In this document: one piece after another, positions 15,818 to 55,176 of the stretch
Position numbering within the stretch: the first letter of the stretch is position 1
How the letters are laid out: each line of letters opens with the position of its first letter
Assembly: GCA_013391385.1 (NCBI GenBank)
Contig: JACBFI010000020.1
Coordinates: 1 to 63,360, forward strand
Length of the DNA stretch: 63,360 bases
Origin: Sediminibacterium sp. Gen4
Lineage (GTDB): Bacteria > Bacteroidota > Bacteroidia > Chitinophagales > Chitinophagaceae
Direction: 5' to 3'
Made by a program: the position numbers and the translations under genes
Notes under the pieces: model-generated
The model's database searches: none
Told to the model about the DNA's origin: nothing
Seen by the model: the letters and a program-made list of their open reading frames with translations, nothing else

Positions 15818-15939
15818 ATTCGACTATTCTCTCTCCTGGCCAGCAGCTGCAGCTCCGGATTGCTGCGAAATCATTCGACTGTTTCAGCGGCCGGCCAACC
15901 GGTCCCGGTGTTTCCAGGTCAAAAAATAGTCGACTATTT
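15818..15939. repeat. Array A: three TCGAC motifs at 55-bp spacing, palindrome-rich
   Basis: TCGAC occurs at 15820, 15875 and 15930, each in the context AttCGACTATTT/GTTT and exactly 55 bp apart. The 44-bp fillings are GC-rich, unlike the surrounding AT-rich DNA, and contain TGGCCA, CAGCTG, CTGCAG, TCCGGA, CGGCCG (within GGCCGGCC), ACCGGT and GTCGAC. It lies between the terminator of the methylase gene and the promoter region of the gene at 16030. Five further copies share the same geometry. Confidence 0.92.
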
Positions 15940-15974
15940 CCTTGCATGATTCAAGACATTTTTGTACTTTTATT

Positions 15975-15999
15975 TATTCTCTTACCCCTATAGAGAATA
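15975..15999. promoter_or_regulatory. Inverted repeat (possible operator) upstream of 16030
   Basis: TATTCTC at 15975-15981 and GAGAATA at 15993-15999 form a dyad about 30 bp before the start at 16030. A TTGTACTTTTA stretch just before it could be a -7 region. Position and symmetry fit an operator for the accessory operon; no regulator is assigned. Confidence 0.4.
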
Positions 16000-16029
16000 G
16001 ATCTTTTAACTATCAAATGAAATGAACCA

Positions 16030-16401
16030 ATGCATTCAAAACGCAAGCCGACAGTGAGCGCCAACTCATCGAAGCAAAAAAAATTCAAACCTACTTTTAA
16101 AGAGGTTTACATCAAACAATCTGTTTTATCAGACAAGGATAGACAGGCCATTTGTTTCCTTATGGAACACTTTGGCGAATGGGCATCAACTAAAACAGTC
16201 CTTCGTGCAGTTCACGAACTAATTGATTTGCTCCCTAAATACAAAAGCCTCCAGGAGCAAAATTTGACCCTTAACAGACAGCTTTCTGATTCCCGGTCCA
16301 AACTCGAAGCTGTGCGAAGGAATCTCGGCAATATCCAGTCTTTGCGAAAATCCATTGATCAGGAGCGTGATTCTATTTTCAAGACTTTAAACACTAAGTA
16401 A
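16030..16401 (+). CDS. Small basic coiled-coil protein
   Basis: 123 residues. Basic, disordered N-terminus (1-25), a helical middle, and a heptad-like coiled coil at about 75-120. The sequence from about 35 to 65 (CFLMEHFGEWASTKTVLRAV) is compatible with a small DNA-binding or ribbon-helix-helix fold. No family recognised. It is the first gene after array A and its stop overlaps the next start (TAATG), so the two form an operon. Confidence 0.65.
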   Translation: MHSKRKPTVSANSSKQKKFKPTFKEVYIKQSVLSDKDRQAICFLMEHFGEWASTKTVLRAVHELIDLLPKYKSLQEQNLTLNRQLSDSRSKLEAVRRNLGNIQSLRKSIDQERDSIFKTLNTK

Positions 16402-16601
16402 TGAAATTAGATTATAAAACAACAACGACTGGTCCTGACAGACTCAGGACTTTGCATATAGTAGTAGTCGAAGATGAAATTTTATCTACCACAAGAGCAA
16501 AAGAGATTCTTTCCTTTGTAAAAATCAGAAAACCAACAAAATATGAATGGAAAATGGTGAAAGAGGCTGTCCGTAAAGGGGAACAACTTAAAATATTATA
16601 A
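16401..16601 (+). CDS. Hypothetical protein, 66 residues
   Basis: Starts inside the stop codon of the gene before it (TAATG). A short alpha/beta protein with a charged C-terminal helix; no membrane segment. No family recognised. The tight coupling supports a real gene working with its neighbour. Confidence 0.6.
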   Translation: MKLDYKTTTTGPDRLRTLHIVVVEDEILSTTRAKEILSFVKIRKPTKYEWKMVKEAVRKGEQLKIL

Positions 16602-16629
16602 TTTCAATTACTTAATTCAATTTTTAAAA

Positions 16630-16767
16630 ATGAACACTACCATACAGCAAACAATAGAATTTATCAAGTCCTATCGCAACATGGAAAAAGGATCTCTGGC
16701 TAATGCCAAATCCATTATCGCTAAACTCAGTGATGAACACCAGCATGATCATCTATATAGATCTTAA
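16630..16767 (+). CDS. Very small protein, 45 residues
   Basis: ATG at 16630, TAA at 16765-16767. The product begins MNTTIQQTIEFIKSYRN and ends in a His-rich tail (HQHDHLYRS). It is helical and soluble. It lies 28 bp after the previous stop, has an AAA-rich leader like its neighbours, and ends 47 bp before the next gene, so it fits the operon, but it is short enough that chance cannot be excluded. Confidence 0.5.
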   Translation: MNTTIQQTIEFIKSYRNMEKGSLANAKSIIAKLSDEHQHDHLYRS

Positions 16768-16783
16768 TTTCATTAAATATTAT

Positions 16784-16791
16784 TAATTTTG
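16784..16791 (+). promoter_or_regulatory. Candidate Bacteroidota -7 promoter box
   Basis: TAATTTTG matches the Bacteroidota -7 consensus TAnnTTTG and lies 23 bp before the start at 16815. No clear -33 TTG is present at the right distance. Confidence 0.4.
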
Positions 16792-16814
16792 CTAATTCTA
16801 AACCTTAACTAAAA

Positions 16815-17348
16815 ATGAAGAAAGTTCTTTTATCTCTCGCATTTATGTGTGTCTTTTTTATCACCGCATTTGGACAGGCTGACAAAATCACGTTGAATAA
16901 CGGGAAAACGGTAGAAGGTTCTATCGTTAAAGTCACTGAATTCACCGTTATTTTCAAATATGTTAATGAAGATGCGGAACAAACTGTAAGTAAATACCTG
17001 GTTGAAAAAATTGTTTATGGTAAAAGTGGGCGAGTAGAAAACCTTTCACCTAAAATTGTTATTTCCTCTGAAGATGATTGGGAAAAAGTTATTATCCTCG
17101 AAGATAATTCCGCAACTGCAGGTTTAACAAAAGTTGGTGAAATCAAAGGTAAAACCTCACTTATTAATTATAGAACCGCTTCCGGTAATGATAGAAAAGC
17201 TGAGGAAAAACTAAAAAAAGAGGCAGCAAAACTTGGATGTCAGTTCATTTTGATGACTTCGGATAAAGATGCAGGATTACAGTCAAACGGTAGTAGGGGA
17301 TTGGGTGGTACTCAATCAGCCAAAAAAGGAATAGCCTACAAATATTAA
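16815..17348 (+). CDS. Secreted protein of unknown function
   Basis: 177 residues. A clear Sec signal peptide (KKVLLSLAFMCVFFITAFGQ, about 1-21) places it in the periplasm or outside. Residues 22-70 form a beta-rich small domain (KITLNNGKTVEGSIVKVTEFTV), a pattern common in short Bacteroidota secreted proteins that are told from larger families only by structure. The second half is alpha/beta with a Gly/Ser-rich end. It has its own promoter candidate and a strong terminator at 17362, so it is probably a single-gene transcript. Confidence 0.7.
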   Translation: MKKVLLSLAFMCVFFITAFGQADKITLNNGKTVEGSIVKVTEFTVIFKYVNEDAEQTVSKYLVEKIVYGKSGRVENLSPKIVISSEDDWEKVIILEDNSATAGLTKVGEIKGKTSLINYRTASGNDRKAEEKLKKEAAKLGCQFILMTSDKDAGLQSNGSRGLGGTQSAKKGIAYKY

Positions 17349-17361
17349 TATTATCAATTTT

Positions 17362-17388
17362 AGAGCCGGTTATTAACCGGCTCTTTAT
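17362..17388 (+). terminator. Rho-independent terminator
   Basis: AGAGCCGGT / ACCGGCTCT, perfect 9-bp stem with a 5-base loop, followed by TTATT, just after the secreted-protein gene. Confidence 0.9.
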
Positions 17389-17485
17389 TCAGATGAAATT
17401 TGTTTTAGTAATTGCTCGCAAACAGAATGTACATCCTTCAATGACTTTTTCTACATTGTCAATTATTAACTAAGTTTTTCTTAAT

Positions 17486-17758
17486 ATGAAATTCTATATT
17501 CAATACCCTCATTTTGATAATAACATTAATGATCCTCTCTCCAAAATTGCTCAGGAATTGATCATTACTAAGTTTGTTAAATTCAAATTCCAATCCATGT
17601 GGGCATTGAGAAGCATTGAGAATGATATTAAGGAAGAAGGTGGCATTTTAATTATTAATGAAAAATTCCAGATTGAAACAAAACAATTTTCTGAAGACTT
17701 AACCCGTAAAATTAAAACTCTCATTGGCGTTGCTAAGGCTGATGGAATCTATGAGTGA
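17486..17758 (+). CDS. Hypothetical protein, 90 residues
   Basis: A small alpha/beta protein without signal peptide or membrane segment. The centre (about 25-45) is hydrophobic enough for a folded core. No family recognised. An 18-codon AT-rich leader precedes it and a gap of 51 bp separates it from the next gene on the same strand. Confidence 0.55.
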   Translation: MKFYIQYPHFDNNINDPLSKIAQELIITKFVKFKFQSMWALRSIENDIKEEGGILIINEKFQIETKQFSEDLTRKIKTLIGVAKADGIYE

Positions 17759-17809
17759 TTTAACATAAGATAAATTATCGGTTTATAAAACATTTAAAAT
17801 CAATTAGTT

Positions 17810-18127
17810 ATGAATGAGCCTTTTAATGACGATTCTTTGCTTCATAAATTTCCTAAAGAAGTCAAACACCAGGACGAAACTTTTTCTCTTTACATGATCA
17901 CTGACGAGTTCGTTTTTTTTCTTAACCTGATGGAATCTGATGATAACGGATGCACTAGAATGTATGATCATGACATGAACTTAGTATCCAACAATTATTT
18001 TGCAACTAATGAAATTGCCGTACTGATACACGAAAACCAGGATGCGATTCGCTGGGTGTCTGATGTCGCTAAATATAATATGCAGCAAGAGGGCGTTTGG
18101 CCAGAACAGAATGGTTTGAAAATTTAG
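17810..18127 (+). CDS. Hypothetical acidic protein, 105 residues
   Basis: An acidic, soluble protein with several aromatic residues; no recognised family. Its acidity and size recall DNA-mimic or anti-restriction proteins of plasmids, but no diagnostic motif is visible, so this is only a thought. It is the last gene before a 276-bp gap. Confidence 0.55.
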   Translation: MNEPFNDDSLLHKFPKEVKHQDETFSLYMITDEFVFFLNLMESDDNGCTRMYDHDMNLVSNNYFATNEIAVLIHENQDAIRWVSDVAKYNMQQEGVWPEQNGLKI

Positions 18128-18403
18128 TTTTTTTTCTTTTGGGGCGACTATATCCTGCTTTTCGTTGCAATGCCTCGCTATGCTCGGGATTTTCACTGCA
18201 ATCATGGTCGCACTTCGTCGTTTACTTTTCTCTTTCTCTTCAAGGTTAATGCACGCAAAGATAAAATTCTTTGCTTCGGGCGACCAAACCGCGGCGCTTA
18301 AACACAACTCCTTACACATACCCTTCATTTATGCCGCTTCATGTTTGGTCTTACTCGCAAAAATTTTGTTCAAAGGGCATTATTAACCTTAAAATTATTC
18401 TAC
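18128..18403. other. Non-coding gap with unusual composition
   Basis: 276 bp without a credible gene. It starts with a T-run and a GGGGCGAC block and contains phrases such as CCTCGCTATGCTCGGG and CTTCGTCG that are much richer in GC than the flanks. It looks like an inserted interspersed element rather than a leader, but no ends or target duplication are visible. It precedes the RadC-like gene. Confidence 0.4.
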
Positions 18404-18856
18404 ATGCCCAACAAATTCTCCCTTCCCAAATTGAAACTAATCGTCGAAAACCCATTTCCCCACACAGATCGAATTTCAGTTCGTACCAATCAGGATGCAG
18501 TTGACATTTTTAGAGAAATTTGGGAACCAGGTACTCTTGAATTATACGAATCCGTTTATGTTATCTTTCTCAACAAATCCATGAGGGTTTTGGGTTTCAT
18601 AAGACAATCTTTCGGCTCAATTGATGGATGCGTATTTGATGCTAGACTTATTCTTGCAACAGCACTACTTTCAGCCTCTACTGGGATCATCGTTGCTCAC
18701 AACCATCCCTCAGCCAATACACAACCCTCTATGAGTGATGAAACTGTTACCAGAAAACTAAAAGAAGCTTGCGAACTTCTTAATATAAAATTCCTTGATC
18801 ACATCATTTTAACCGCTAACTCCTACTATTCTTTTAAAGATGAGGGCAATACATAG
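18404..18856 (+). CDS. RadC-like JAB domain protein
   Basis: 150 residues starting MPNKFS at 18404; an upstream ATG at 18341 would add 21 residues that do not fit the family. The JAMM metal motif is complete: HNH, seven residues, S, two residues, D (VAHNHPSANTQPSMSDE, about residues 98-114). RadC/YeeS-type proteins are frequent on plasmids and genomic islands; the JAB fold is a metal hydrolase or DNA-associated module, but its true substrate is not settled. The protein lacks the helix-hairpin-helix start of chromosomal RadC, as usual for plasmid versions. Confidence 0.88.
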   Translation: MPNKFSLPKLKLIVENPFPHTDRISVRTNQDAVDIFREIWEPGTLELYESVYVIFLNKSMRVLGFIRQSFGSIDGCVFDARLILATALLSASTGIIVAHNHPSANTQPSMSDETVTRKLKEACELLNIKFLDHIILTANSYYSFKDEGNT

Positions 18857-19084
18857 CCCTTTTTTTGCTCTGCCCCACCCACCCGTTTTTAATGGTGCTA
18901 CTGCGTAGCGACATATTACCCTAACCCTATCTTTTTTTCTTGCACAACAGGGAAACAAAAGACTTTTTGTTGTTTTTTTATTACTGTTTTTTTTACTTTT
19001 TTTAATAAAATATTTTCCTTTTTATTTTGCTGAAACCCAGTATTGACGTATATTGTAGCATATTTACATTATTTAATTATTCAA

Positions 19085-19107
19085 GTGAGGCACACTTAAA
19101 ACAGCAG
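19085..19107 (+). promoter_or_regulatory. Conserved leader motif, copy 1
   Basis: GTGAGGCACACTTA followed by AAACAGCAG, ending 7 bp before the start at 19115. The same 23 bases with one change occur at 20701-20723, again directly before a start codon. It is probably a shared 5' leader, operator or ribosome-binding region for two small genes. Confidence 0.65.
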
Positions 19108-19114
19108 AAAATCT

Positions 19115-19381
19115 ATGGCTACATTATCCTTCCCCAATGGGTTTGAATCTTGGCACGAATCTCACTTTAAATTTGTAGAAATCATCATCCGATCCCTCGA
19201 TACCGAAGGATCTTACCCACATCATATTCATAGTACCAAGGGTACCGGTGGACTCTACGAACTCACTCACGACCTAACCAATCAGTTTGAACAACTTAAC
19301 ACCGGCAGAGAATGGAACGGTGAATTTTTCGATGAAGTAGAAGCCTTCGCTAACAATTTCTTTCAACAACAACCCGTCTAA
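19115..19381 (+). CDS. Hypothetical protein, 88 residues
   Basis: A soluble acidic protein with His and aromatic residues (YPHHIHSTKGTGGLYELTHDLTNQFE). It fits the short proteins often found in Bacteroidota plasmid accessory regions, of unknown function. Its leader shares the GTGAGGCACACTT motif with the gene at 20733. Its stop is 4 bp before the first motif of array B, so it is the last gene of the A-B cassette. Confidence 0.65.
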   Translation: MATLSFPNGFESWHESHFKFVEIIIRSLDTEGSYPHHIHSTKGTGGLYELTHDLTNQFEQLNTGREWNGEFFDEVEAFANNFFQQQPV

Positions 19382-19383
19382 TC

Positions 19384-19505
19384 AGTCGTACAATTTCAGC
19401 GACCGCCGGCGTGATCATCCGGAGCTCGATCCTCATTTGGTCGAACATTTCACGCAGGTAGCCAGCTGATCATGCGAGATCCTGGTTTAATTCAGTCGTA
19501 TCATT
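19384..19505. repeat. Array B: three TCGWA motifs at 55-bp spacing, palindrome-rich
   Basis: TCGTA at 19386, TCGAA at 19441 and TCGTA at 19496 are 55 bp apart. The fillings hold CGCCGGCG, TGATCA twice, TCCGGA, GAGCTC and CAGCTG. The array separates two + strand genes (stop 19381, start 19528). Motif bases differ from array A but the geometry is the same. Confidence 0.88.
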
Positions 19506-19527
19506 TTACCACTTTAATTCATAAATC

Positions 19528-19965
19528 ATGAAAACAACTAAGGAACTTATCCAAGAATTGAGACAAAATGGTAGATGTATCGTAGATGCATCCACTCGAA
19601 ATTACAGAACAGAAATGTTCTATTACAACGACCAACAAATCGTTGTAACCACCAACAAAACCAACGGTCATTTTCAGATCTTCTTTACTCCCAATGATAA
19701 TCTTACAAAAACAGAAAATGACTGTTTCTACCATGGTGTAACAGCTAATCAGCCAAAGCTTGAAGCAGTCGATATCGACCAGTTTATTGAACAAATCATT
19801 AACGGTCCTACCGGGCTGGCTGTTATGGAGCAAAGAGAATTTTTGGTCCACCACAAACCTGATCGGATCGTAACAGCTGCATTCGTTATTCGCTGTCTCG
19901 CCAATCCCCTTTGTAATGGCAGTGCCGAAGTATTACAGGCGATCATGAACAAAAGAAAAGCATAG
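19528..19965 (+). CDS. Hypothetical protein, 145 residues
   Basis: Soluble, alpha/beta, no signal peptide. It begins MKTTKELIQELRQNGRCIVD and has two Cys near its end. No family recognised. First gene after array B; the next gene starts 2 bp after its stop, so the genes at 19528 and 19968 are one operon. Confidence 0.65.
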   Translation: MKTTKELIQELRQNGRCIVDASTRNYRTEMFYYNDQQIVVTTNKTNGHFQIFFTPNDNLTKTENDCFYHGVTANQPKLEAVDIDQFIEQIINGPTGLAVMEQREFLVHHKPDRIVTAAFVIRCLANPLCNGSAEVLQAIMNKRKA

Positions 19966-19967
19966 CT

Positions 19968-20459
19968 ATGGCAAAATATACTCCAGAGAAATTGACTGCA
20001 CTCAGGCGACTCCGAGCGGCCAGACGTATGCATAGGCGATTCCCTCTAATGGCTTTTCTCTTTATGAAAGAAAAATATCCTGAGTATTCCTATAATGACT
20101 TCATAGAGGATATCACACCGAAACGAAAACGCTATTACAAATCTTATCGGTATATAAAAAAATGCCCTTTGCGAAAATACGGGCGCTTTACAGCAATGGA
20201 TAATCTAATCCAACAATACCGTCAAACAGGTGACCCAGCCGCTTTGCTAAAAGCTGAGAAGATCCGTAAAGTAATGACCAAGCCTTATCGCATTCTCGTT
20301 TCTATCAAAGGACAAGCCACAGAGTTCTATCTATCAGAGTACATTCCTTACCATATCGTACAGGATCTTACCATTGCCATCAAAAAAACCAATACAATGG
20401 AAATGGCTGAACAACTCATTAACGATATTAGATCTCGCTATAATGGCTTTGGTGCCTAA
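19968..20459 (+). CDS. Hypothetical basic protein, 163 residues
   Basis: A strongly basic protein: the first 30 residues are Arg-rich (ALRRLRAARRMHRRF) and a second basic cluster lies near 50-70. This suggests nucleic-acid binding. No catalytic motif or known domain is recognised. Co-transcribed with the gene before it. Confidence 0.65.
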   Translation: MAKYTPEKLTALRRLRAARRMHRRFPLMAFLFMKEKYPEYSYNDFIEDITPKRKRYYKSYRYIKKCPLRKYGRFTAMDNLIQQYRQTGDPAALLKAEKIRKVMTKPYRILVSIKGQATEFYLSEYIPYHIVQDLTIAIKKTNTMEMAEQLINDIRSRYNGFGA

Positions 20460-20491
20460 CTTTTTCGTAACTTTAAAACACAATTTCAATC

Positions 20492-20683
20492 ATGGAAAAC
20501 AACAATCTCCAACATCCCCAAAACTTCAAACCCAGTCACGAAGATCTAAATCGTGTAGCGACTTTACTCTCTGCATTCTTCAGTCCAAAAAATGCACTGC
20601 ATGACCCCGAGACCGGAGAATTATTGGCTCGTGGTAAGAGGCAGGATGATAATGCACAACCAATCGAATCTGACAACAATTAA
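20492..20683 (+). CDS. Hypothetical protein, 63 residues
   Basis: A short polar protein with a helical centre and a disordered acidic end. No family recognised. Spacing of 32 bp on both sides and same strand as its neighbours support a real gene in the small-gene operon. Confidence 0.55.
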   Translation: MENNNLQHPQNFKPSHEDLNRVATLLSAFFSPKNALHDPETGELLARGKRQDDNAQPIESDNN

Positions 20684-20700
20684 GCGTTAATAATCAAAAA

Positions 20701-20723
20701 GTGAGGCACACTTACAACAGCAG
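20701..20723 (+). promoter_or_regulatory. Conserved leader motif, copy 2
   Basis: GTGAGGCACACTTA followed by CAACAGCAG, 9 bp before the start at 20733. It differs from the copy at 19085-19107 by one base, and a TTAATNATCAA-like stretch precedes both. Confidence 0.65.
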
Positions 20724-20732
20724 CATCCGTCT

Positions 20733-21314
20733 ATGAAATCAGTATCTATTTCCTCCAAACATTGGAGAAACTTTGATCTCGAACTACAAGTCAAATTCCT
20801 TATTACTCAGTTCAGAAAAGCAAACTTAGAGATCACAGCATTACCATCTCCCGAATTACTCGTTACACTGCGCAGCCTTAATTGTGCTACTCTTGAGGTT
20901 TTAGAAATACTTAGTACAGCTACAGTATATAGAATCAAACCAACAGGATACACATATCTCGTTTACAAAGACGGTCAAACATTTACATTCTCCTCTTATC
21001 AAGTCTATATTTCCCTATACCCTGAATTAAGAAAAAGTGCAACAATCCTTGAATCCAAAGATCCTGTCTACACCATCGATTTCAACAGTTATATTCCAAT
21101 GATCACAAGGCATAAGCCACCTCGATTCTTAGGGTCGATTAATAAACAATCCATTCACCTCGATACAGGTCCAGAATGGAAAATAGATATCACTGATATT
21201 AACTGGCTCGATGGTCATGAGAACCTCTCTGCGACTCAATATGCATCACTGATGAAGAAAACCGTGTTATTTGTTCTTGGTAATACCAATATTCTCGACG
21301 AACAGATGAATTAA
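20733..21314 (+). CDS. Hypothetical protein, 193 residues
   Basis: Soluble, mostly beta by eye, no signal peptide and no membrane segment. No family recognised. It shares its leader motif with the gene at 19115, so the two are probably expressed together. It ends in a 4-bp convergent overlap with the - strand gene at 21311. Confidence 0.6.
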   Translation: MKSVSISSKHWRNFDLELQVKFLITQFRKANLEITALPSPELLVTLRSLNCATLEVLEILSTATVYRIKPTGYTYLVYKDGQTFTFSSYQVYISLYPELRKSATILESKDPVYTIDFNSYIPMITRHKPPRFLGSINKQSIHLDTGPEWKIDITDINWLDGHENLSATQYASLMKKTVLFVLGNTNILDEQMN

Positions 21315-21592
21315 ACGTCCATTCTATCTAAGTAAGATGATAAAGCAGCAATGATCCTTTCAAGGGCATAGGCATTGTTTCCTGTGCCCTCAATCAGCTT
21401 CCAGTTCGGTCGCCGGTGCTTTAAACCCTTGCCTCGGAATAATGGTCGATTGTTCTGTAACACAATTGACCGGTCACGACCCTTTACACAGATACGCTCT
21501 ACCTGATCAGAACGGTAAATGACCTCTGCCGTCAATCGGTAATACCGATTGTCAACATATACACTGAATACCCAACTTTCCATGCTTTTCAT
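21311..21592 (-). CDS. Hypothetical protein, 93 residues
   Basis: The only - strand gene in the 16-23 kb accessory run. The product is basic, with a beta-rich N-terminus (SWVFSVYVDNRYYRLTAEVIYR) and a helical end. No family recognised. It lies between two + genes with good spacing upstream (91 bp to the SRAP start on the other strand), so it has room for its own promoter. Confidence 0.55.
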   Translation of the reverse strand: MKSMESWVFSVYVDNRYYRLTAEVIYRSDQVERICVKGRDRSIVLQNNRPLFRGKGLKHRRPNWKLIEGTGNNAYALERIIAALSSYLDRMDV

Positions 21593-23370: not shown

Positions 23371-23443
23371 TTTGTCAACAATTGTAGAACAAAAATAATA
23401 CTAATTAAGATAATACCGATCAGGAAAATAGTAAGAGTCTCTT

Positions 23444-23562
23444 AGTCGACCGATTTCGTACCGGCCAGCTGCTGCAGCTGATGACGCCGGTGATTTCTGG
23501 TCGTACAAATTTCCTGGTCCCGGGATCTGCAGTAGCAAGATCTTCGCCTTTTTAGTCGAATC
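23444..23562. repeat. Array C: three TCGWM motifs at 55-bp spacing, palindrome-rich
   Basis: TCGAC at 23446, TCGTA at 23501 and TCGAA at 23556, 55 bp apart. Fillings contain GTCGAC, CAGCTG twice, CTGCAG twice, CCCGGG and AAGATCTT. The third motif lies within the last codons of the HEPN gene (its final Gly-Phe-Asp), so the array is flush with that gene. Confidence 0.9.
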
Positions 23563-24403
23563 CTTTACCACTATTATTACTACCCCTTACCCAGTCCTTA
23601 ACTATTTGATTCACCCTTTCTACCTTACTGAAGACAGCATCAAGATCTTTAAAATTCACCGCATAATCTGTACCATATCGGCTTTCAATATATGCCCTTT
23701 GAAGAAGCTTAAAGAGCCGCTTCTCTGTTTCATTATTCCGAGGAAAAATCTCATGAATTTCTCCCAATATGAAACCTGCATATCGAATTAGCCTTTCAAT
23801 ACTGTGCGTACAACAATAATATCCCATTCCTATCTTAAGGACGCCCGACAAAACATGTTCCATTGCCTGGTGCAACATAAACATCGAAAATTTGTACTGC
23901 TTGCGGATCTTAAATAACTCAGCTCCAGCCATAAATTCCTGGTATTTATTACAAGCATCCCAATAGTGCTGTTCCTTAACTGATTTATCCGATTTTTTCA
24001 ACCCAATTGGTCCTAAACAAATGGTTTCAACTTTATAGATAGGATCTATTGAATATATCAAATGCGCGAATCCGTGACCCTCCAATATCCATTGCTCGAA
24101 TGTTTGTGTCTCCAACACAAGACACGTAGTACTTGCAACCGATTCACACTGTTGTTCAATTCGTTCCTGAATTTTGACAAGTGTAGTATCAGGATCTTGT
24201 CTTAATAATACAAAAAGAAAATATGATAAATCTGTTTGCGATTGATAAATATTATTTCGAAAAATTGACTCAATAATCCTGTTCTTACGAACTACTCCAA
24301 GTACATAAATCAAATCTGGGTTCGCAACCTCTTTTACAATGGTAATTAGTCGATTTTCTAAGTCCTCATTTTTGGATGAAAATGTACAATTCGATGATAT
24401 CAT
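23552..24403 (-). CDS. HEPN domain protein
   Basis: 283 residues. The C-terminal half (about 150-270) has the HEPN helical pattern: FSMFMLHQAMEHVLSGVLKI, then a helix with a His-containing turn, then YIESRYGTDYAV near the end. The N-terminal half looks like a nucleotidyltransferase-like fold that lacks the GS...DxD site. Fusions of this type are common in Bacteroidota; HEPN proteins may be RNases or accessory factors, and the arginine motif needed for RNase action is not clear here. It overlaps the upstream gene by 4 bp (ATGA). Confidence 0.72.
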   Translation of the reverse strand: MISSNCTFSSKNEDLENRLITIVKEVANPDLIYVLGVVRKNRIIESIFRNNIYQSQTDLSYFLFVLLRQDPDTTLVKIQERIEQQCESVASTTCLVLETQTFEQWILEGHGFAHLIYSIDPIYKVETICLGPIGLKKSDKSVKEQHYWDACNKYQEFMAGAELFKIRKQYKFSMFMLHQAMEHVLSGVLKIGMGYYCCTHSIERLIRYAGFILGEIHEIFPRNNETEKRLFKLLQRAYIESRYGTDYAVNFKDLDAVFSKVERVNQIVKDWVRGSNNSGKGFD

Positions 24404-25275
24404 ATATTTTCCCTTTTAAATGTAGTTCGCACATAAATTAAATGACACCCTTCTATCACTTTTCGTAACTGTTCTGATATCGTAAATGTCTCCAAGTATA
24501 TCCCGGATTCAGTTAGACTCTTTTTACTAAGCGCTCCATTCATTATATAATCCAAGATCTCTTTCCAATCTTCCTTTACTCGTATAGACTTAAATAAAGC
24601 CAATGCTTTGTAAGGGTCGCGAAACTCTTTCGTAGATAAACTGCGAGGAAAATAATCCCAAGACATTAACTGATCATAATTAGCACAGTAGAGGGAATAA
24701 TTTGTCAAATCAGGATTCTTGTATTTCCTACTTAAAGCCGCCTTTTCCATTATATTATCATCGGTAACTATATTATATACTGATTCAAACAAACTATCAA
24801 GACTTTCAAAAAAATTAAGAAGATCATTAGGTGTCGACATTTCCCATATTCCCATTGCCTCAGCTGCTCTAATTGCTGAGGTTAAGTATTCCAAAGCTTT
24901 AGGAAGTGTTATTGAATCAAAGAACTCCTGGATATTCTTATAATCTTTTGGCAAATCCTTATCTTCTATTCTTGTTAGTTGAATAATCGAAGAGGTTTTC
25001 ATCAACTTTTTTTTCCTTAACAACCAAGCAGCGTCAATCAATTTCTCAAGATCGTCGTGTGTAGCAACATGCATCGGTGCATCATTATCATCCATCCATA
25101 TAGCATCATACAACATGTCTTTTAAACAGGTTCTTATCTGCGGTAAATCATACCGATCAAAAAACTGATCAATTACTTTATGCGGATTATTCATTTCCGC
25201 AATAGTCAATCTGAATGGTTTATAATGCCAATCAGGATAGTCGGCCATTATCTTCTCTTTGAATAGTGGATTCAT
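24400..25275 (-). CDS. Hypothetical protein coupled to the HEPN gene
   Basis: 291 residues, helical, soluble, no signal peptide. No recognised domain. Because its stop overlaps the HEPN start by 4 bp the two are likely partners, for example a regulator or antitoxin-like partner of the HEPN protein; the sequence itself does not show this. Upstream (25340-25370) lies a direct repeat that could be an operator. Confidence 0.65.
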   Translation of the reverse strand: MNPLFKEKIMADYPDWHYKPFRLTIAEMNNPHKVIDQFFDRYDLPQIRTCLKDMLYDAIWMDDNDAPMHVATHDDLEKLIDAAWLLRKKKLMKTSSIIQLTRIEDKDLPKDYKNIQEFFDSITLPKALEYLTSAIRAAEAMGIWEMSTPNDLLNFFESLDSLFESVYNIVTDDNIMEKAALSRKYKNPDLTNYSLYCANYDQLMSWDYFPRSLSTKEFRDPYKALALFKSIRVKEDWKEILDYIMNGALSKKSLTESGIYLETFTISEQLRKVIEGCHLIYVRTTFKRENI

Positions 25276-25339
25276 AATATTTGATTTTTTGTTTCATGCC
25301 GAATATTCCCTGAAACCTCGTTTATCACCAACACATAAT

Positions 25340-25370
25340 GTGAATTCGGTAGCAACGATTGTGAATTCGG
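25340..25370. promoter_or_regulatory. Direct repeat, possible operator
   Basis: GTGAATTCGG occurs twice 21 bp apart (25341 and 25361 approximately), two helical turns, between topB's terminator and the start of the 24400-25275 gene. Two-turn spacing suggests cooperative protein binding. Confidence 0.45.
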
Positions 25371-25373
25371 GCA

Positions 25374-25400
25374 TAAAAAAGGCTGCGACGAATCGCAGCC
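25374..25400 (-). terminator. Terminator of topB
   Basis: On the - strand GGCTGCGA / TCGCAGCC with a TTCG loop is followed by TTTTTTA, 40 bp after the topB stop. Confidence 0.93.
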
Positions 25401-25439
25401 TACCCTTATGAAACAATGAAAACCAGAACAAACTCTTGC

Positions 25440-27563
25440 TTATTTCTTATCAAAAACAAATGAAACTTTATAATCTGATCCTAGTATTAATGCTGCTTCA
25501 AAAGGCTTATTCGTCTTACTACTCACAAACCCTTTCACTGTCCCTGTTTTGCCCTTTTGAATTAACGCCTGAATCTGTGTGTCGGTTAATTTCTTCGATG
25601 CTATCGTCCTCCAGATCGTAAAGGCACATCCTGACTTATACTCAGAGCATCCCGCAGCTTTCTCTCGAATAGTAATAACTCCTTTTTTACATTTCGGGCA
25701 ACCAATACCTGTAGCACCCGGTTGCATAGCTGAAACATTGATAGTTCCTGATTGCTCCAGTATCTCCTTTGTCAATACTGATGTGTATTCGCTAATCTCA
25801 TTCATGAACGTTCCTGCTGAATAAATCTCACAGCGGATATCCTCTAACTTCTTCTCCCACTCTCCCGTTAGTACCGGTTTACTGATACTCTTTTCTTTTA
25901 CTAGATTATACACTTCCAACCCCTTTGGTGTAGGAACAATACTCTTTTTCTGGCGATCAATGTAGCCTATGCTAAACAGCTTACCAATTACAGCCGCCCT
26001 GGTTGCCGGTGTTCCCAATCCGCAGTCCTTCATGGCCGCCCTTAACTCATCATCATCAACTTCCCGTCCCGCTGTCTCCATTGCTTTTAATAGCGTTCCC
26101 TCAGTAAATAAGGGCTGAGGCTTGGTTTTCTTTGCTTCTGTAAAAACTTCCTTTACTGGCAATTCCTCTCCAACCGATAACGCAGGTATAGACTGATTAT
26201 CCTCGCCATCTTCTTCCTCTTTAACACCCCATACAGATCTCCATCCGGGATAAACAATCTGAACACCCCTTGACATGAAATCAAATTCCGGTTTCGGTTC
26301 TATCTTAACCTCAAATACCACTGTTGTTACCATTTTTTTACACGCCTCTCCGAAAGATTCAAGCATACGGCCAACTACCAGGTCATATACTATCTTTTCA
26401 TCTCCTGAAAGCTTTCCGGGCTTGTTCTCGGTAGGTAAAAGCGCATGATGATCCGTTACCTTTCCATCATTGACAGATCGCTTATTCAGCTTCTTTTTAA
26501 TTAACTCTGCCGCCGGTTGCGCAAATGGTTCATACCCCATTGCATTCCTGATCAATCCTGGTACTGTTTCAAATACATCCTCTCCAATATATCTGCTTCC
26601 TGTTCGTGGATAAGTAATCAATTTTTTCTCATACAATTCCTGGGCAATGCGTAGCGTTGCTTCTGCACTTAATCCATTTCGCTTATTGGCATCCTGTTGA
26701 AGCGAACCTAAATCATACAACAATGGCGGCTGCTCTTGCTGTTCCTCCTTTTCAAGTTCCTTCAATTTTACAACCTTCCCCCTTACTCTTCCCTCTAGTG
26801 ACTGTGCTTCCGGTAGATTATTGAAATGGTGAACCTTTCCGCCCTTAATCGCTATAGCACCAAAGGGGATACCCTTCTCCAAACCAATCTTTACCAGGTA
26901 ATAAGGAACAGCTTTAAAGCCCGTATTTGCCAAGTATCTTTCGCAGATCATGGCAAGGGTCGGTGTTTGTACCCTACCTAGAGATAATAAGCCCTTATTT
27001 CCGGACGAAAGCGTTAATGCCTGTGTAGCATTGATACCTACCAACCAATCAGCTTCTGCACGGCATCTTGCAGAATGATATAATGGATCAAAATCTTTAC
27101 CCGGCTTTAATTCATTAATACCGTCTCTGATCGCTTTCTCCGTTAAAGAAGAGATCCACAGACGATCAAATGGTTTTCGGCATCCCAGGTATTCATAGAT
27201 GAACCGGAAGATCAATTCTCCCTCTCTACCTGCATCTGTAGCCACGACAATGCGCTCTACTCGATCCAATAGTTGACCAATGAGTTTTATCTGTTTCTCA
27301 GCTCCTTCATCGTTACTATATCCGCTCTTACCCTTTACCTGTTTAACAGACAGTGAGAAAGATTCGGGAAGTATAGGAAGATTTTCTTTTGACCATGTTG
27401 TAAAACCATACTCTTCTGGTCCAGACAACTGAACAAGATGCCCAAAAGCCCAGGTAACCAAGTAACCATTACCCTCGAGGTATCCACTGCGTACAGTATC
27501 AGCACCTAATATCTTTGCAATTTCTCTACCAACAGATGGTTTTTCAGCTATAACTAATTTCAT
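25440..27563 (-). CDS. topB: DNA topoisomerase III
   Basis: 707 residues, full length for TopB. The Toprim domain starts at once (MKLVIAEKPSVGREIAKILG) with ATDAGREGELIFR near 110-122; the catalytic tyrosine is in LITYPRTGSRYI near 315-326; a Cys-rich C-terminal region (GCPKCKKG..GC..GC) is a partly degenerate zinc ribbon. Type IA topoisomerases on Bacteroidota conjugative elements decatenate or unwind plasmid DNA during transfer and replication. It has its own terminator and lies between arrays C and D. Confidence 0.95.
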   Translation of the reverse strand: MKLVIAEKPSVGREIAKILGADTVRSGYLEGNGYLVTWAFGHLVQLSGPEEYGFTTWSKENLPILPESFSLSVKQVKGKSGYSNDEGAEKQIKLIGQLLDRVERIVVATDAGREGELIFRFIYEYLGCRKPFDRLWISSLTEKAIRDGINELKPGKDFDPLYHSARCRAEADWLVGINATQALTLSSGNKGLLSLGRVQTPTLAMICERYLANTGFKAVPYYLVKIGLEKGIPFGAIAIKGGKVHHFNNLPEAQSLEGRVRGKVVKLKELEKEEQQEQPPLLYDLGSLQQDANKRNGLSAEATLRIAQELYEKKLITYPRTGSRYIGEDVFETVPGLIRNAMGYEPFAQPAAELIKKKLNKRSVNDGKVTDHHALLPTENKPGKLSGDEKIVYDLVVGRMLESFGEACKKMVTTVVFEVKIEPKPEFDFMSRGVQIVYPGWRSVWGVKEEEDGEDNQSIPALSVGEELPVKEVFTEAKKTKPQPLFTEGTLLKAMETAGREVDDDELRAAMKDCGLGTPATRAAVIGKLFSIGYIDRQKKSIVPTPKGLEVYNLVKEKSISKPVLTGEWEKKLEDIRCEIYSAGTFMNEISEYTSVLTKEILEQSGTINVSAMQPGATGIGCPKCKKGVITIREKAAGCSEYKSGCAFTIWRTIASKKLTDTQIQALIQKGKTGTVKGFVSSKTNKPFEAALILGSDYKVSFVFDKK

Positions 27564-27582
27564 ACATCAATTTTTGTGTTTT

Positions 27583-27701
27583 ATTCGACTATTTTTCACA
27601 GCTGCAGGAAGATCCGGACGCTGGCCAAGCCATCAACAGTCGACTATTTTCGCTGAGGCCTGGTGATCGAGCTGCCGGCACCGGTGATTTTCATTCGACC
27701 G
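27583..27701. repeat. Array D: three TCGAC motifs at 55-bp spacing, palindrome-rich
   Basis: TCGAC at 27585, 27640 and 27695. Fillings contain CAGCTG, CTGCAG, TCCGGA, TGGCCA, GTCGAC, AGGCCT, GCCGGC and ACCGGT. Its second unit is about 85% identical to the second unit of array E, so these two share descent. It begins 20 bp upstream of the topB start and its third motif ends 3 bp from the stop of the gene at 27702. Confidence 0.93.
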
Positions 27702-28679
27702 TTAATAACAGTAATTGTAGAAATAACTGATCCGGTGCGGTGTTGATTTTGGTACCTGTGAATCCGCAGCCCAAATCAATGCACTCAATGTAGTATTCGC
27801 CTGATTTGCTGATCTGCCTAGTGCTGTATTGATCATACTAAACGTTAATGTTCCTGATGCCGGTAACCTATTACCGGGAGCAATATAAATTGATCCTGAT
27901 CCCCCACTTGTCCCACACACATTCTGTGCAACAGCATAGTAAGTTCCGCTCGTAGTGGTAGAGGTAGAAGATCCTGATGTATAGTAACCACCATTTAAAT
28001 ACCAAAGAATATTTCCTGATCCACTGGCACTTAATGTTGCACTCTGACCAGGACAGATTTTGTAACTATTTGTTGAAATAGACGGAGCACCAGGTACAGT
28101 TAACTCAACTACAGAGGCACCGCCACTACTCGATGATATACCGCAACTATTCTGCTCTGTAACGGTATAAGTACCGCCACTACTCGCAGAATAACTATTA
28201 CCAAAACCTGTTACAGGACTTCCATCACGGTACCACTGATAAGATCCTGATCCTCCTGATGCCGTTAATGATTGACTACCACTAGGACATATTTCAGCAT
28301 ACCCGGGTGATATCGTCGGCTGACCCGGTGTGTTCAATCTTGATATCACAAAGTCTTTTGTATCAGAATAAGAACCAGAAGTGACGCTAATACGGATATA
28401 ATGACCAACAGTTAAAGACGTTGATTGTGAGAAACTGAAATTACTTGTAAAAACTGTTCCTGAAAAAATAACCGGGTTCAATGAAGGGTTCGAAGAAGCA
28501 CCAATTCTTACTGAATAATTTTGTGCAGATCCGGTAAATGCATAGCTATAGAAGGTAACAGTTCCACTTCCATATTCGGAATCACATACATAAGCCACAT
28601 GACCCGAAATGCTTACCTGAGCATCGATTCGAGGAATCGTAAAAAGTGTCATCAAACAAAGAATGATTTTTATTTTCAT
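27702..28679 (-). CDS. Secreted Ig-like protein with a fibre-type C-terminus
   Basis: 325 residues with a signal peptide (about 1-20, ending IDAQ). Residues 21-195 match the start of the giant adhesin at 42477-48869 almost module for module (VSISGHVAYVC..., then Ig-like SGSYQWYRDGSPV units). The end (LTFSMINTALGRSANQANTTLSALIW...ISYFYNY) resembles the N-T-x-L-G module seen at the ends of phage tail and cell-surface fibres of Bacteroidota. It has no T9SS sorting domain. Last gene of the long surface operon. Confidence 0.7.
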   Translation of the reverse strand: MKIKIILCLMTLFTIPRIDAQVSISGHVAYVCDSEYGSGTVTFYSYAFTGSAQNYSVRIGASSNPSLNPVIFSGTVFTSNFSFSQSTSLTVGHYIRISVTSGSYSDTKDFVISRLNTPGQPTISPGYAEICPSGSQSLTASGGSGSYQWYRDGSPVTGFGNSYSASSGGTYTVTEQNSCGISSSSGGASVVELTVPGAPSISTNSYKICPGQSATLSASGSGNILWYLNGGYYTSGSSTSTTTSGTYYAVAQNVCGTSGGSGSIYIAPGNRLPASGTLTFSMINTALGRSANQANTTLSALIWAADSQVPKSTPHRISYFYNYCY

Positions 28680-50778: not shown

Positions 50779-51216
50779 ATGCCAAGAAAACGAATCAACA
50801 AGAAAATGGCACAAGTAAAAGACAAGCGTCTGGAGTATATTGCTGCACGAGTAGTACAAGTCCGAAAGAGCCTAAATCTAACTCAAGCAGCTATTGCAGA
50901 TAGGTTGGGAGTTACATCTGTATCAGTATATCAAGCTGAGCGACATCATAGTTCTCTTCTATTAGATATCATCATACTTTTTACCAACAGCTATGGGATC
51001 AATCCTGCGTGGATCTTGGTTGAAGATAACAGTAAGGTTTCGCAAGTAATAGAACGTAAGGGTCCGGGACAGATCATGCCTGAGATCACACCGGTTGAAG
51101 CTGATAACCTGGATAGTGGTCAACTTGCAACCAGAATTAGACGAGATATTTTGAAATTAAAAGAAGTAGCGGCCAATGAAGCTCTTGCAAAAGCAAAGAA
51201 GAAGAAAACTAAGTAG
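50779..51216 (+). CDS. XRE-family transcriptional regulator
   Basis: 145 residues. The helix-turn-helix is at about 20-75: VVQVRKSLNLTQAAIADRLGVTSVSVYQAERHHSSLLLDII. The C-terminal 60 residues are charged with a lysine tail. It starts inside the outer arm of a hairpin, which fits autoregulation, and is divergent from the surface operon, so it may control that operon. It could also be a solitary antitoxin. Confidence 0.85.
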   Translation: MPRKRINKKMAQVKDKRLEYIAARVVQVRKSLNLTQAAIADRLGVTSVSVYQAERHHSSLLLDIIILFTNSYGINPAWILVEDNSKVSQVIERKGPGQIMPEITPVEADNLDSGQLATRIRRDILKLKEVAANEALAKAKKKKTK

Positions 51217-51566: not shown

Positions 51567-51735
51567 CTGCTAAAGGAATAGGCTTTTCTTTTTTCGCTTT
51601 CACCTTATCGTAGGCTCGAATATCTTCAAGTTCCTCAAGTTCTTCCAATATCATATTGTACTTTTTGATTGGAAGCACAGCAGATATTTTTTTTCCATGT
51701 TGATCAGTTATGAATGTTGTGTTTGACAAAGTCAA
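51532..51735 (-). CDS. Phd/YefM- or RelB-like antitoxin
   Basis: 67 residues before and overlapping the RelE toxin gene. The N-terminus ([32 protein letters not shown]) resembles the Phd/YefM DNA-binding start used for autoregulation; the rest is a lysine-rich toxin-binding tail. Together they form a plasmid-stabilising toxin-antitoxin pair. Confidence 0.82.
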
Positions 51736-51797
51736 TTCATTTAGTCGTGAATCCTAAAATTAATAAAATATTGCAAAAAAGCAATAATATTGTTACG

Positions 51798-51816
51798 TGT
51801 TACGTTATTGGTAACA
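51798..51816. promoter_or_regulatory. Inverted repeat, candidate operator of the HigA-like gene
   Basis: TGTTACGTTATTGGTAACA, 6-bp arms with a 7-bp spacer, 14 bp before the start at 51831. A second dyad, TATTGC / GCAATA, lies about 15 bp further upstream. Both fit binding by the HigA-like protein. Confidence 0.6.
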
Positions 51817-51830
51817 GTAATTCAATTAAT

Positions 51831-52163
51831 ATGAAGAAAAAACAACCCTCACCGGTACATCCCGGTACCTGGCTCAAAGAGCAGTACATGATCCCGCTCG
51901 ATATCACAGTAACAGAGCTGGCCGCTAACCTAGGTGTAAGTCGTAAGAATCTTTCTATCCTGGTAAACGGACATATGGGTGTAAGCCCGGAAATGGCCAT
52001 GCGTCTGGCCAAAGCTTTTAATACCACTGCTGAGTTCTGGCTCAATATGCAAGTGGCTTATGAACTGCATAGAACACAGCCTCAATCAGCATTTAAGAGT
52101 ATTAAAGCCTACCCTACCGGTCGTAATAAGGTTGAGGAAAAAGAGACAACCAATACTATCTAA
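51831..52163 (+). CDS. HigA-like antitoxin / XRE protein
   Basis: 110 residues starting [20 protein letters not shown] at 51831. The HigA family pattern is clear: [60 protein letters not shown]. HigB usually precedes it, but there is no toxin gene here; the RelE pair is on the other strand. It is 15 bp upstream of rep, so it may serve as a repressor of replication rather than an antitoxin. Confidence 0.88.
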
Positions 52164-53228: not shown

Positions 53229-53238
53229 TGGTTCGGAG

Positions 53239-53797
53239 TTCTGATTTTGTCGCAATACACTGGGGGTGATCTCTATTTTTGTCGTAATAGATTCCTGTTT
53301 TTGGGGAAATATTCTGAATGAAGAGTTCTGATTCTGTCGTAGAACAGGCACTAAAGGGGAGGAAAAATGAAAAATGTGGTGAGAAAATGGCATTTAAAGC
53401 TGGTTTAAAAGGCTCTGATTCCGTCGCAATAGAGATAATGGAGTTCTGATTCAGTCGTGATGAGAGTTCTGATTTTGCCACAGTAACCTTCTGATTTAGT
53501 CGCAATTACCTTCTGATTTTGTCGCAATAAATCGGCTGTAATCCTTACTGGTATTGTATTTGGCGCACCTTACAATCTATACAATTGATAAAACAATAAA
53601 AGAATCAAAGGAAGTTTTTAGTTGAAATGTGTGGAAAGTTTTGAAGAAAGCAGGTCAAATTGGCAGAAAAAAGCGAAGAAAAGAAGAAAAAATCATCAAA
53701 AACAAGTTGATTTTACCGGCGGCGGGCTGAATAGTTCTGATTTTGTCGCATTAGTGGTTTTATCCTGGATATTGAGTATTCTGATTTTGTCGCATTA
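53239..53797 (+). other. oriV: Iteron origin of replication (oriV)
   Basis: About ten direct copies of a 19-20 bp iteron, consensus GTTCTGATTTTGTCGCAATA, at approximately 53239, 53271 (poor), 53325, 53412, 53442, 53466, 53489, 53511, 53733 and 53778. The half between 53530 and 53730 is AT-rich with polyadenine runs and may be the melting region. One inverted copy lies at 54030-54050. Position after a Rep_3 gene identifies it as oriV. Confidence 0.92.
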
Positions 53798-54081
53798 GAT
53801 TGTAACTATATGATTATTAATTAATTATAAGCGGTTCAATATTTTAGCTTGTCTCCCCTATTGTGTACCTGCCTGCAGATAATGTATCAGGTAGAGCAGC
53901 AGGATCAGCCATATAAGCCAGTATTGGTGGTTTCCTTGGCTTTATTTATGCTGGTGGGATAAGTCTAAGGAGCGTAGTAAATAAAGTGCCAGAATCGGGC
54001 TTATTTGAAGATTAAGCGATGTAGTTCCTCTACGACAGAATCAGAAGTTGACGATATTCTATCAATTATTGTTTCAATAAA
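53798..54081. other. Origin-flanking region
   Basis: About 280 bp without a gene. It holds one inverted iteron (54030-54050, reading CTCTACGACAGAATCAGAAG on the + strand). The rest is a short GC-mixed stretch with no other structure that I can support. Confidence 0.6.
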
Positions 54082-54203
54082 GTTCGACTGTTTATACTCT
54101 CTGCAGCAGGATCTATCAGCTGGCCGGTGACAAATCAGTCGACTATATTGGCTGAGGCCTGTAACTCGAGCTGCCGGAACCGGTGAATTTCATTCGACCA
54201 ATT
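54082..54203. repeat. Array E: three TCGAC motifs at 55-bp spacing, palindrome-rich
   Basis: TCGAC at 54084, 54139 and 54194. Fillings contain CTGCAG, CAGCTG, GTCGAC, AGGCCT, CTCGAG and ACCGGT. The third motif ends 6 bp from the Fic stop codon. The second unit is about 85% identical to that of array D, 26 kb away. Confidence 0.93.
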
Positions 54204-54204
54204 T

Positions 54205-55020
54205 TTACCATAATAGAAACCCGGACATCCCTTTATTATGAATACGAACATCTTTATTCTGGTATTCCCGGATCTGCTCCTTCAAGAGCTTAGTATACTG
54301 AGATAACATGAACTCATTAAAAGGTTCTATACTTTCTTTTTCTCTAGATGTATTAAGAGCATTGATATAATCAACTTTATCTTCCTGGTAAACAATTCCT
54401 AAAGGTAAATTGAATCGTTGCTGAATATAATTCATCAATAATCGAGAGGTTCGACCATTGCCATCATAAAAAGGATGAATAGATACTAAATTATAATGAG
54501 AGGAAAAACTAAGTTGTAATTGTTGCTCAATTGTTGAAATACCGGATATGTTATTTTGAAGATCTGCAACAAAAATTTTCATGAGCAATTGAACTTTATC
54601 ATACCCGGGAAAATACTTTCCTCCAGCACTTACATTTCCTTTTCTATACTCCCCTTTTGTGCCATCAACTGAACCCAATGGTGTGTTGTATACAGAGCCA
54701 GTATTCTTCATCACAAGACTATTAATCTTCTGAATAAAGTTTTCTGTGATCGCTGAATGAGTCTCAGCTGCAAGCAAACAGAACTGCAATGCAGCATAGT
54801 GATCTCTGGCCATTAAAGAATGCTCCAGTGGTTTACCTTTCGGCGTTATCCCCTCTTCAATTAATAATCTTGTTTCTGTTTCTGAAAGTGTAGATCCTTC
54901 AATAACTGTGGAGTGATGTGTAATAGCAATAGCATTGAAATTATCATGACCAATAACATCATGAAGTCCAAGATCGTTGTATTCCTGGATCAGGGGTAAT
55001 ATGTCTTTCAAAGCTTTCAT
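54205..55020 (-). CDS. Fic-domain AMP-transferase-like protein
   Basis: 271 residues. The Fic motif HPFYDGNGRTSRL is complete (about 182-194), with the catalytic His and the phosphate-binding loop. An inhibitory helix motif, STVIEGSTL (about 37-45), precedes the core, as in class II Fic proteins that hold themselves inactive. It would transfer AMP or another nucleotide to a target protein; the target is unknown. No partner gene is adjacent. It lies alone between arrays E and F, like a cassette inserted between the origin and the transfer operon. Confidence 0.93.
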   Translation of the reverse strand: MKALKDILPLIQEYNDLGLHDVIGHDNFNAIAITHHSTVIEGSTLSETETRLLIEEGITPKGKPLEHSLMARDHYAALQFCLLAAETHSAITENFIQKINSLVMKNTGSVYNTPLGSVDGTKGEYRKGNVSAGGKYFPGYDKVQLLMKIFVADLQNNISGISTIEQQLQLSFSSHYNLVSIHPFYDGNGRTSRLLMNYIQQRFNLPLGIVYQEDKVDYINALNTSREKESIEPFNEFMLSQYTKLLKEQIREYQNKDVRIHNKGMSGFLLW

Positions 55021-55057
55021 TGCCTCTATAAAGATACGAAACCGTATGACTTAGCAG

Positions 55058-55176
55058 AGTCGACTATTTTATCCCGGGCCTAGGGCTGCAGCCGGCAGTT
55101 ACACTGATATACGGTCGACTGATTTCCCACCGATCAGCAGCTGGATCTCCCGGGTCGATTAAAATTCGGTCGAACA
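55058..55176. repeat. Array F: three TCGAM motifs at 55-bp spacing, palindrome-rich
   Basis: TCGAC at 55060 and 55115, TCGAA at 55170. Fillings contain GTCGAC twice, CCCGGG twice, CCTAGG, CTGCAG (inside GGCTGCAGCC), GCCGGC and CAGCTG. It lies between the Fic start and the terminator of the transfer operon. Confidence 0.92.

Follow-up and report, generated by a model that had tools for sequence, protein, structure and literature searches.

Six dispersed arrays of three palindromic nodes at a constant 55-bp period on a Sediminibacterium plasmid, candidate nucleoprotein sites at gene-block borders

Contig JACBFI010000020.1 of the Sediminibacterium sp. Gen4 genome (assembly GCA_013391385.1; 59 contigs, 3.52 Mb), which was analysed over its whole length of 63,360 bp (the window), carries six dispersed arrays, A to F, each composed of three TCG-containing nodes placed 55 bp apart. 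The two ends of the contig overlap by exactly 55 bp and, for this reason, it is probably a circular plasmid of 63,305 bp. Its genes for MobC/NikA, a MobA/VirD2-type relaxase, a coupling protein, TraG and TraM, together with a Rep_3 initiator gene that is followed by direct repeats, some of them 22 bp apart, identify the plasmid as conjugative or mobilisable. The gene list used in our study comprises 50 plasmid proteins scanned against Pfam at an E-value of 0.001, with small or overlapping open reading frames and host enzymes lying outside it; this list gives a coding density of 89% and leaves 20 gaps of at least 120 bp, one of which spans the contig ends. The only transposase-type protein among the 50 is TnpB/OrfB; the genes at 50779-51216 and 51714-52163 each encode an HTH_3 (Cro/C1-type) protein, and the ParA-like matches found at 61799-62662 are weak (E 0.01 and 0.013).

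The first-pass annotation had reported six arrays with a constant spacing, and our study confirms all of them at their coordinates (Table 1), with 55 bp between adjacent TCG nodes in 12 of 12 spacings. When equally spaced TCG triples were counted on both strands at every spacing from 20 to 120 bp, 55 bp was the only one to reach at least three. That random sequence might give such triples at a similar rate had been named beforehand as a possible refutation; on the plus strand, the six real arrays compare with a maximum of three at any spacing, and of one at 55 bp, in 200 dinucleotide shuffles. The geometry of the six arrays is far beyond chance, and this condition did not refute it. The GC content of the arrays is 50-55%, against a background value of 38.8%. 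TCG is kept in all 18 nodes, followed by A in 15 of them and by T in the other three. With both strands pooled, the node is palindromic, reads about AAATTAGTCGACTAATTT, and has symmetric flanks. Node scores with the corresponding matrix range from 9.9 to 20.4 bits, and 16 of the 18 nodes exceed the best non-node site of the plasmid (13.4 bits), although these scores favour the nodes, as the matrix was trained on the same 18.

Table 1. Coordinates of the six arrays and of the gene blocks bracketed by them
Feature	Coordinates	Strand	Nodes and units, or gene content
Array A	15812..15941	+	nodes 15820, 15875, 15930; both units +
Array B	19378..19507	+	nodes 19386 (TCGT), 19441 (TCGA), 19496 (TCGT); both units +, orientation of unit B2 uncertain
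Array C	23438..23567	-	nodes 23446, 23501 (TCGT), 23556; both units -
Array D	27577..27706	mixed	nodes 27585, 27640, 27695; units +/-
Array E	54076..54205	mixed	nodes 54084, 54139, 54194; units +/-
Array F	55052..55181	-	nodes 55060, 55115, 55170; both units -
Block A-B	15990..19381	+	RadC-domain protein 18341-18856, small unknown proteins
Block C-D	23570..27563	-	bacterial DNA topoisomerase 25440-27563, unknown 24400-25275, HEPN-domain protein 23552-24403
Block E-F	54205..55020	-	single Fic-domain gene

The sequences between the nodes had been described as differing among copies. They do differ, with a mean identity of 41% over their 43-bp cores, but they are not unrelated: once flips are allowed, the 12 units align in register, and a MAFFT alignment of the oriented units is gap-free. 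The summed pair identity of the 12 orientation-optimised units is 1106, compared with 772 ± 24 for rotated cores (largest of 300, 856) and 752 ± 17 for shuffled cores (largest of 200, 801), controls that were likewise orientation-optimised, with fewer restarts (30 vs 200). The 12 units are one diverged 55-bp family. The orientation of unit B2 is doubtful, since its identity to the other units is 16-42% and the profile favours the minus strand for it (16.2 vs 10.4 bits). This family is not a simple tandem repeat of near-identical head-to-tail units, given its 41% identity and the opposed units of D and E. The second units of these two arrays, for which about 85% identity had been claimed, are indeed strongly alike, at a measured 81% over the core, whereas their first units are 51% identical (Fisher p = 0.006, for a pair chosen post hoc). 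Likeness also crosses array positions: C1, a left unit, is 70% identical to D2, a right unit. Such cross-position likeness, together with the contrast between D2/E2 and D1/E1, is the pattern expected from exchange at the nodes.

Special attention was given to short palindromes in the cores of the units. Against dinucleotide shuffles, the cores hold 62 even palindromes of four bases (30 ± 4.5 in the control) and 37 of six (8.8 ± 2.7). Because homology among units could carry palindromes along, letters were also permuted within the alignment columns, and the excess was maintained: 63 against 35.3 ± 4.8 for 4-mers, 37 against 10.7 ± 3.0 for 6-mers (largest of 2000 permutations, 23) and 11 against 3.2 ± 1.7 for 8-mers (largest, 11). 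Omitting unit E2 changes little (6-mers, 34 against 9.7 ± 2.9). In the 11 units other than E2, no comparable excess was seen for odd palindromes (5-mers, 40 against 31.6 ± 5.0; 7-mers, 7 against 7.9 ± 2.6), direct repeats (11 against 17.2 ± 4.3) or mirror repeats (25 against 27.4 ± 4.5). Extension of 4-mers to 6-mers occurs in 37 of 63 cases (59%, against about 30% in the control), and of 6-mers to 8-mers in 11 of 37 (30%), the same as the control; since the excess in extension stops at six, hexamers are the enriched class. These results provide evidence that the excess of hexamer palindromes goes beyond unit homology. Palindrome density alone is not special: other 114-bp windows of the plasmid reach eight hexamers, as do 48 of the 173,521 window positions in the host stretches examined, and the palindrome-dense windows among 34 related loci reach up to 14 hexamers in 114 bp (locus L149). 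The triples listed for these 34 loci were at most four, all loose ones of TTTT, TTAA or similar words, and none resembled the arrays. We know of no system that explains the hexamer excess of the spacers.

The arrays had also been placed between genes or at gene ends, which holds in detail, as five of them lie 3-68 bp past a stop codon and C overlaps the end of a gene. Array A lies 56 bp after the stop of the 9020-15763 gene, with a terminator-like hairpin (15791-15810) between them; B follows the stop of 19115-19381 by 4 bp and occupies most of a 146-bp intergenic gap; D, 3 bp after a stop, occupies most of the 138-bp gap between the genes 27702-28679 and 25440-27563. In C, the TAA of the HEPN-domain gene falls inside half of the third node. 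Array E is separated by 7 bp from the stop of the Fic gene and lies beside the iteron region 3' of the Rep_3 gene, and F lies 68 bp after the stop of 55242-55880, again with a hairpin between (by eye, about 55184-55203). With 20 gaps of 120 bp or more on the plasmid, an intergenic position is weak evidence by itself; that arrays B and D nearly fill their gaps carries more weight. On the other side, a start codon follows A at 96 bp, B at 28 bp, D at 21 bp and F at 39 bp (the Fic gene), that is, four of the six arrays; of the other two, C is flanked by convergent genes and E is next to the origin, and neither has a start codon just after it. Taken as pairs, A/B, C/D and E/F bracket accessory gene blocks. 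A terminator scan of 15600-28000, which includes A to D, placed one terminator-like hairpin within an array, D, and no target-site duplications were seen by eye at the arrays.

Several other features of the plasmid were observed along with these. The product of the 9020-15763 gene, of 2247 aa, combines Eco57I-type methylase and helicase domains and also contains a LAGLIDADG/intein-like insert; it is reminiscent of large antirestriction proteins of the methylase-helicase kind, such as P1 DarB. Several copies of a TTCTGATTTTGTCGCAATA repeat, probable origin iterons, lie at 53239-54048, 3' of the Rep_3 gene, and one inverted copy adjoins array E. A second dispersed repeat family (TTCAGCTCCACGACTGT...) is present at 23282-23375, 37331-37424, 41247-41292 and 61150-61250; one of its copies is inside the 3' part of the TnpB/OrfB gene (37248-38609), and the family perhaps represents IS605-type ends. 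The mob genes are flanked by a perfect 25-bp inverted repeat (5126-5150 and 63152-63176), possibly a transfer-origin or regulatory element. Finally, 144-bp repeats occur within an S74-peptidase-domain gene (30143-31162), and, near a PorV-like gene, 42477-48869 encodes an Ig-like/PKD repeat protein of 2130 aa.

Folding tests argue against an RNA or single-strand element. Folded as DNA, A and C clearly beat their shuffles (z-scores of -3.1 and -3.3), while the other four arrays range from -1.2 to +0.3; folded as RNA on the two strands, A gives -2.7 and -4.1 and C gives -2.5 and -2.0, with values from -1.6 to +0.2 for the other four. RNAalifold found no pair in a consensus of the 12 units, and Rfam gave no match at gathering scores in the whole window. 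With no fold common to the arrays, this candidate was rejected, and the lack of a shared hairpin makes them look like double-stranded protein-binding DNA.

Relatives were sought at several levels. Within the same genome, at up to two mismatches, the array matches are all on the plasmid contig, with five isolated matches elsewhere against 16 for a backward control; likewise, the profile R1 gave 13 matches in the whole genome, all on the plasmid, and recovered 11 of its 12 source units. Outside it, R1 found none: one genome matched among 61 of the genus, 394 of the family and 345 of the phylum, in each case its own, in samples that overlap (of the 61 from the genus, only 36 have a completeness of 90% or more and a contamination of 5% or less) and with stricter filters that lose weak matches. 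The plasmids of Rhizosphaericola mali and Mucilaginibacter robiniae, the genera of the two best relatives of the Rep protein (the closest, from the R. mali plasmid, has 39.8% identity), did not match R1 either. The types of TraM and TraG, like these two Rep relatives, suggest a Bacteroidota origin for the plasmid. A TCGAC-TCGAC-TCGA pattern matched three of the 394 family genomes, namely its own and two with other tandem repeats. A loose pattern scan of viral sequences gave at least 120 stretches, about chance level by our estimate, and among the best 30 of 215 55-bp TCGA triples in the compared loci, ranked by palindromes, only the plasmid's own arrays were alike. A stricter pattern, which catches four of the six arrays, found one stretch in IMG/VR, a simple repeat, and 16 in the GTDB genomes, none of which on inspection was this element, the plasmid's own record being possibly outside both collections. 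Fourteen of these 16 are tandem repeats with similar units and two are Sphingobacterium arrays with TTCG about every 11 bp.

Two of the other repeats may be described on their own account. The Sphingobacterium TTCG arrays (L153, 6548-6664; L163, 974-1090) turn into the complement CGAA, and 55-bp tandem repeats whose units are similar occur at eight loci (L155-L161 and L167) of seven Paraburkholderia genomes, in several cases, by eye, just upstream of an apparent gene start. As for the plasmid itself, its relaxase is found in one of the 394 family genomes (its own) and in 165 PLSDB records, none covering 80% of the protein, and in no confirmed viral locus; TraG is found in 88 of the 394, with 24-30% identity for the non-own genomes among the matches listed. 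BLAST returned no plasmid relative at the DNA level for 1-25000 (near mode), array A or array E, and no phage relative for the D region. No description of such an element was found in the literature, as judged from the titles and abstract openings of the top matches. The element is rare or undersampled, and to call it unique would be too strong.

Several known systems come near to the arrays. Tn3-type res sites hold three dimer sites within about 120 bp, with a first spacing of about 53 bp, unequal spacings and a resolvase encoded alongside; each array has three palindromic nodes, putative dimer sites, at equal spacing, and no Resolvase domain occurs in the 50 plasmid proteins scanned. Integron attC sites lie at the 3' ends of cassette genes and have conserved ends and a variable middle, but must fold single-stranded, whereas four of the six arrays do not beat shuffles in folding, the units have no consensus fold, and no integron integrase was recognised among the proteins scanned. 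REP/BIME are short repeated intergenic elements at gene ends, chromosomal hairpin palindromes, unlike the plasmid-borne, ruler-spaced nodes described here; mitochondrial LIMP repeats differ as well, being hairpin palindromes in the portion of the description available. A pdif is a 28-bp XerC/XerD site with two 11-bp arms and a 6-bp spacer; the pooled node AAATTAG-TCGA-CTAATTT is instead symmetric through its centre, and the arrays have three palindromic nodes with a TCGA centre over about 130 bp. Nevertheless, the pdif or dif modules of Acinetobacter Rep_3 plasmids are alike in having many copies per Rep_3 plasmid that bracket small accessory blocks, as the accessible part of one report describes (PMC13141974). 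EGeRS1 of the conjugative plasmid pLS20 also comprises dispersed GC-rich elements with inverted repeats (51.4 vs 37.7% GC), described in the available text as 400-600 bp long, before establishment operons and with predicted single-strand structures (PMC8708921), while the arrays are of about 130 bp, lie at stop codons and have no common fold. The CUP elements of IncN plasmids are dispersed, diverged upstream sites with a 13-nt consensus, one overlapping a promoter, that are bound by the plasmid regulator ArdK, and the available text describes no triple node at 55 bp for them (PMC6289460). With regard to an upstream position, four of the six arrays precede a start codon and two do not. The dif modules, EGeRS1 and CUP elements are the nearest in function, and the three-node 55-bp geometry appears in none of them by the descriptions available.

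From the observed geometry, palindromic nodes, flipped homology and position, we infer protein binding, helical phasing and recombination as parts of one scheme, in which the arrays, as nucleoprotein sites, would mark the modules of the plasmid and perhaps recombine them, a reading that we adopt tentatively. A dimeric DNA-binding protein of the plasmid or the host would bind the palindromic node three times at a fixed 55-bp pitch. Looped DNA in vivo has roughly 11 bp per turn; 55 bp would thus be about five helical turns, placing three dimers on one face of the DNA, where they could keep the spacers, rich in GC and packed with palindromes, within a compact complex. The arrays would mark the 3' borders of gene blocks, and recombination at or between them might add, remove or move the blocks A-B, C-D and E-F. 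Double-stranded binding by dimers is favoured because the nodes are symmetric, the pitch is rigid and no fold is shared. In this respect, the proposal of the first-pass annotation that a constant geometry was selected for a protein-DNA structure is supported by the palindromic nodes, the ungapped 55-bp register and the lack of a common fold.

Several observations weigh against module borders. First, the Pfam scan recognised no tyrosine-integrase or serine-resolvase domain among the 50 plasmid proteins, and no related plasmid was found for comparison in which an empty site or an exchanged block would be visible; a recombination site, as had also been proposed, is therefore possible but unproven. 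Second, array and unit orientations are mixed, so that no single crossover point is evident, and D1 and E1 are among each other's closer relatives, which leaves room for duplication with uneven constraint. Third, the nodes at 23501 and 23556 score within the range of non-node sites, and the palindromes of the spacers are unaccounted for by node binding. Finally, a start codon lies 21-96 bp beyond four of the six arrays, so that operators would fit as well.

According to this alternative, which we regard as possible though rather doubtful, the arrays would be operators of a plasmid regulon, where a dimeric repressor or silencer on three phased nodes controls the accessory or establishment operons just after them, in the manner reported for CUP (ArdK) and presumed for the EGeRS of pLS20. 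The dimer-type palindromic nodes and the four start codons agree with this, the two HTH_3 proteins are candidates only, and the available text on EGeRS1 shows the same dispersal, high GC content and inverted repeats (PMC8708921). On the other hand, C and E have no start codon just after them, and D and B are so close to the next start (21-28 bp) that a promoter would need to sit inside or before the array. A scan of 15600-28000 found no sigma-70-type site inside A to D, with Bacteroidota promoters lying outside its model, and the arrays lack a common single-strand structure, unlike EGeRS1. Module borders and operators fit nearly equally, and neither explains the hexamer palindromes. We lean to module borders as most likely because the arrays abut stop codons, fill gaps, bracket blocks pairwise and carry similar units at different positions. 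The stronger proposal of a new class of plasmid site, with a three-node 55-bp ruler and hexamer-palindrome spacers, serving as a common border for exchanging accessory blocks by machinery distinct from any recognised integrase or resolvase of the plasmid, the spacers possibly being exchange points, seems to us unlikely.

Less probable still are topological or partition sites, the former as gene-end sites for gyrase-type wrapping, the latter as a centromere in dispersed form. The length of about 130 bp, the GC-rich middles, the AT-rich phased nodes and the position at 3' gene ends suit them, and REP/BIME and gyrase sites resemble the arrays in length, composition and 3' position; TCG in 18 of 18 nodes is, however, stricter than the looser sequence preference of gyrase, and no array occurs elsewhere in the genome. 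The centromere-like function once suggested has lost ground, as the arrays are spread over the plasmid, none is adjacent to the ParA-like gene, and the ParA-like matches that might support it are weak. A plasmid-specific satellite, that is, a 55-bp repeat that would have spread as it duplicated and drifted and would serve no function today, appears comparably improbable: the units are clearly homologous and were seen on one plasmid only, yet at 41% mean identity they keep their spacing, nodes and palindromes, and the palindrome excess survives the column-composition control.

There is little to recommend restriction-site islands, in which Type II restriction enzymes would meet the hexamer palindromes as decoys or as natural joining sites, although the excess is specifically in hexamers, 684 bp of arrays hold 41 palindromic hexamers of 16 kinds, and GCCGGC occurs four times in the arrays and is scarce in the backbone (one seen, 6.1 expected). 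The common words of the arrays are not scarce in the backbone (CAGCTG, 24 against 22.9; CTGCAG, 15 against 18.7), GGATCC, missing from the plasmid (0 against 15.2), is missing from the arrays too, and the nodes and their spacing are left unexplained. Restriction-site avoidance by plasmids is treated in the accessible part of one report (PMC11602122). Separately, we observed that GGATCC, with about 15-16 copies expected in the plasmid, occurs 14 times against 21.8 expected in the host stretches examined, and that CGATCG and GTGCAC are likewise missing from the plasmid. An assembly or synthetic artefact tied to k=55 is very hard to credit: the contig-end overlap, also of 55 bp, resembles a k=55 circular assembly, but the arrays differ from each other, their gene contexts are ordinary, and we take its agreement with the array period as a coincidence, since the two units within each array differ from one another and we know of no route by which k-mer assembly would set a TCG at 55-bp intervals.

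Should the arrays prove to be module borders, a conjugative plasmid of a little-studied Bacteroidota lineage would gain and lose accessory genes with no recognised integrase. As operators, they would instead reveal a plasmid regulon in which sites are phased in threes, an unusual geometry. In either case, the excess of hexamer palindromes in such diverged spacers is a strange but measurable signal.

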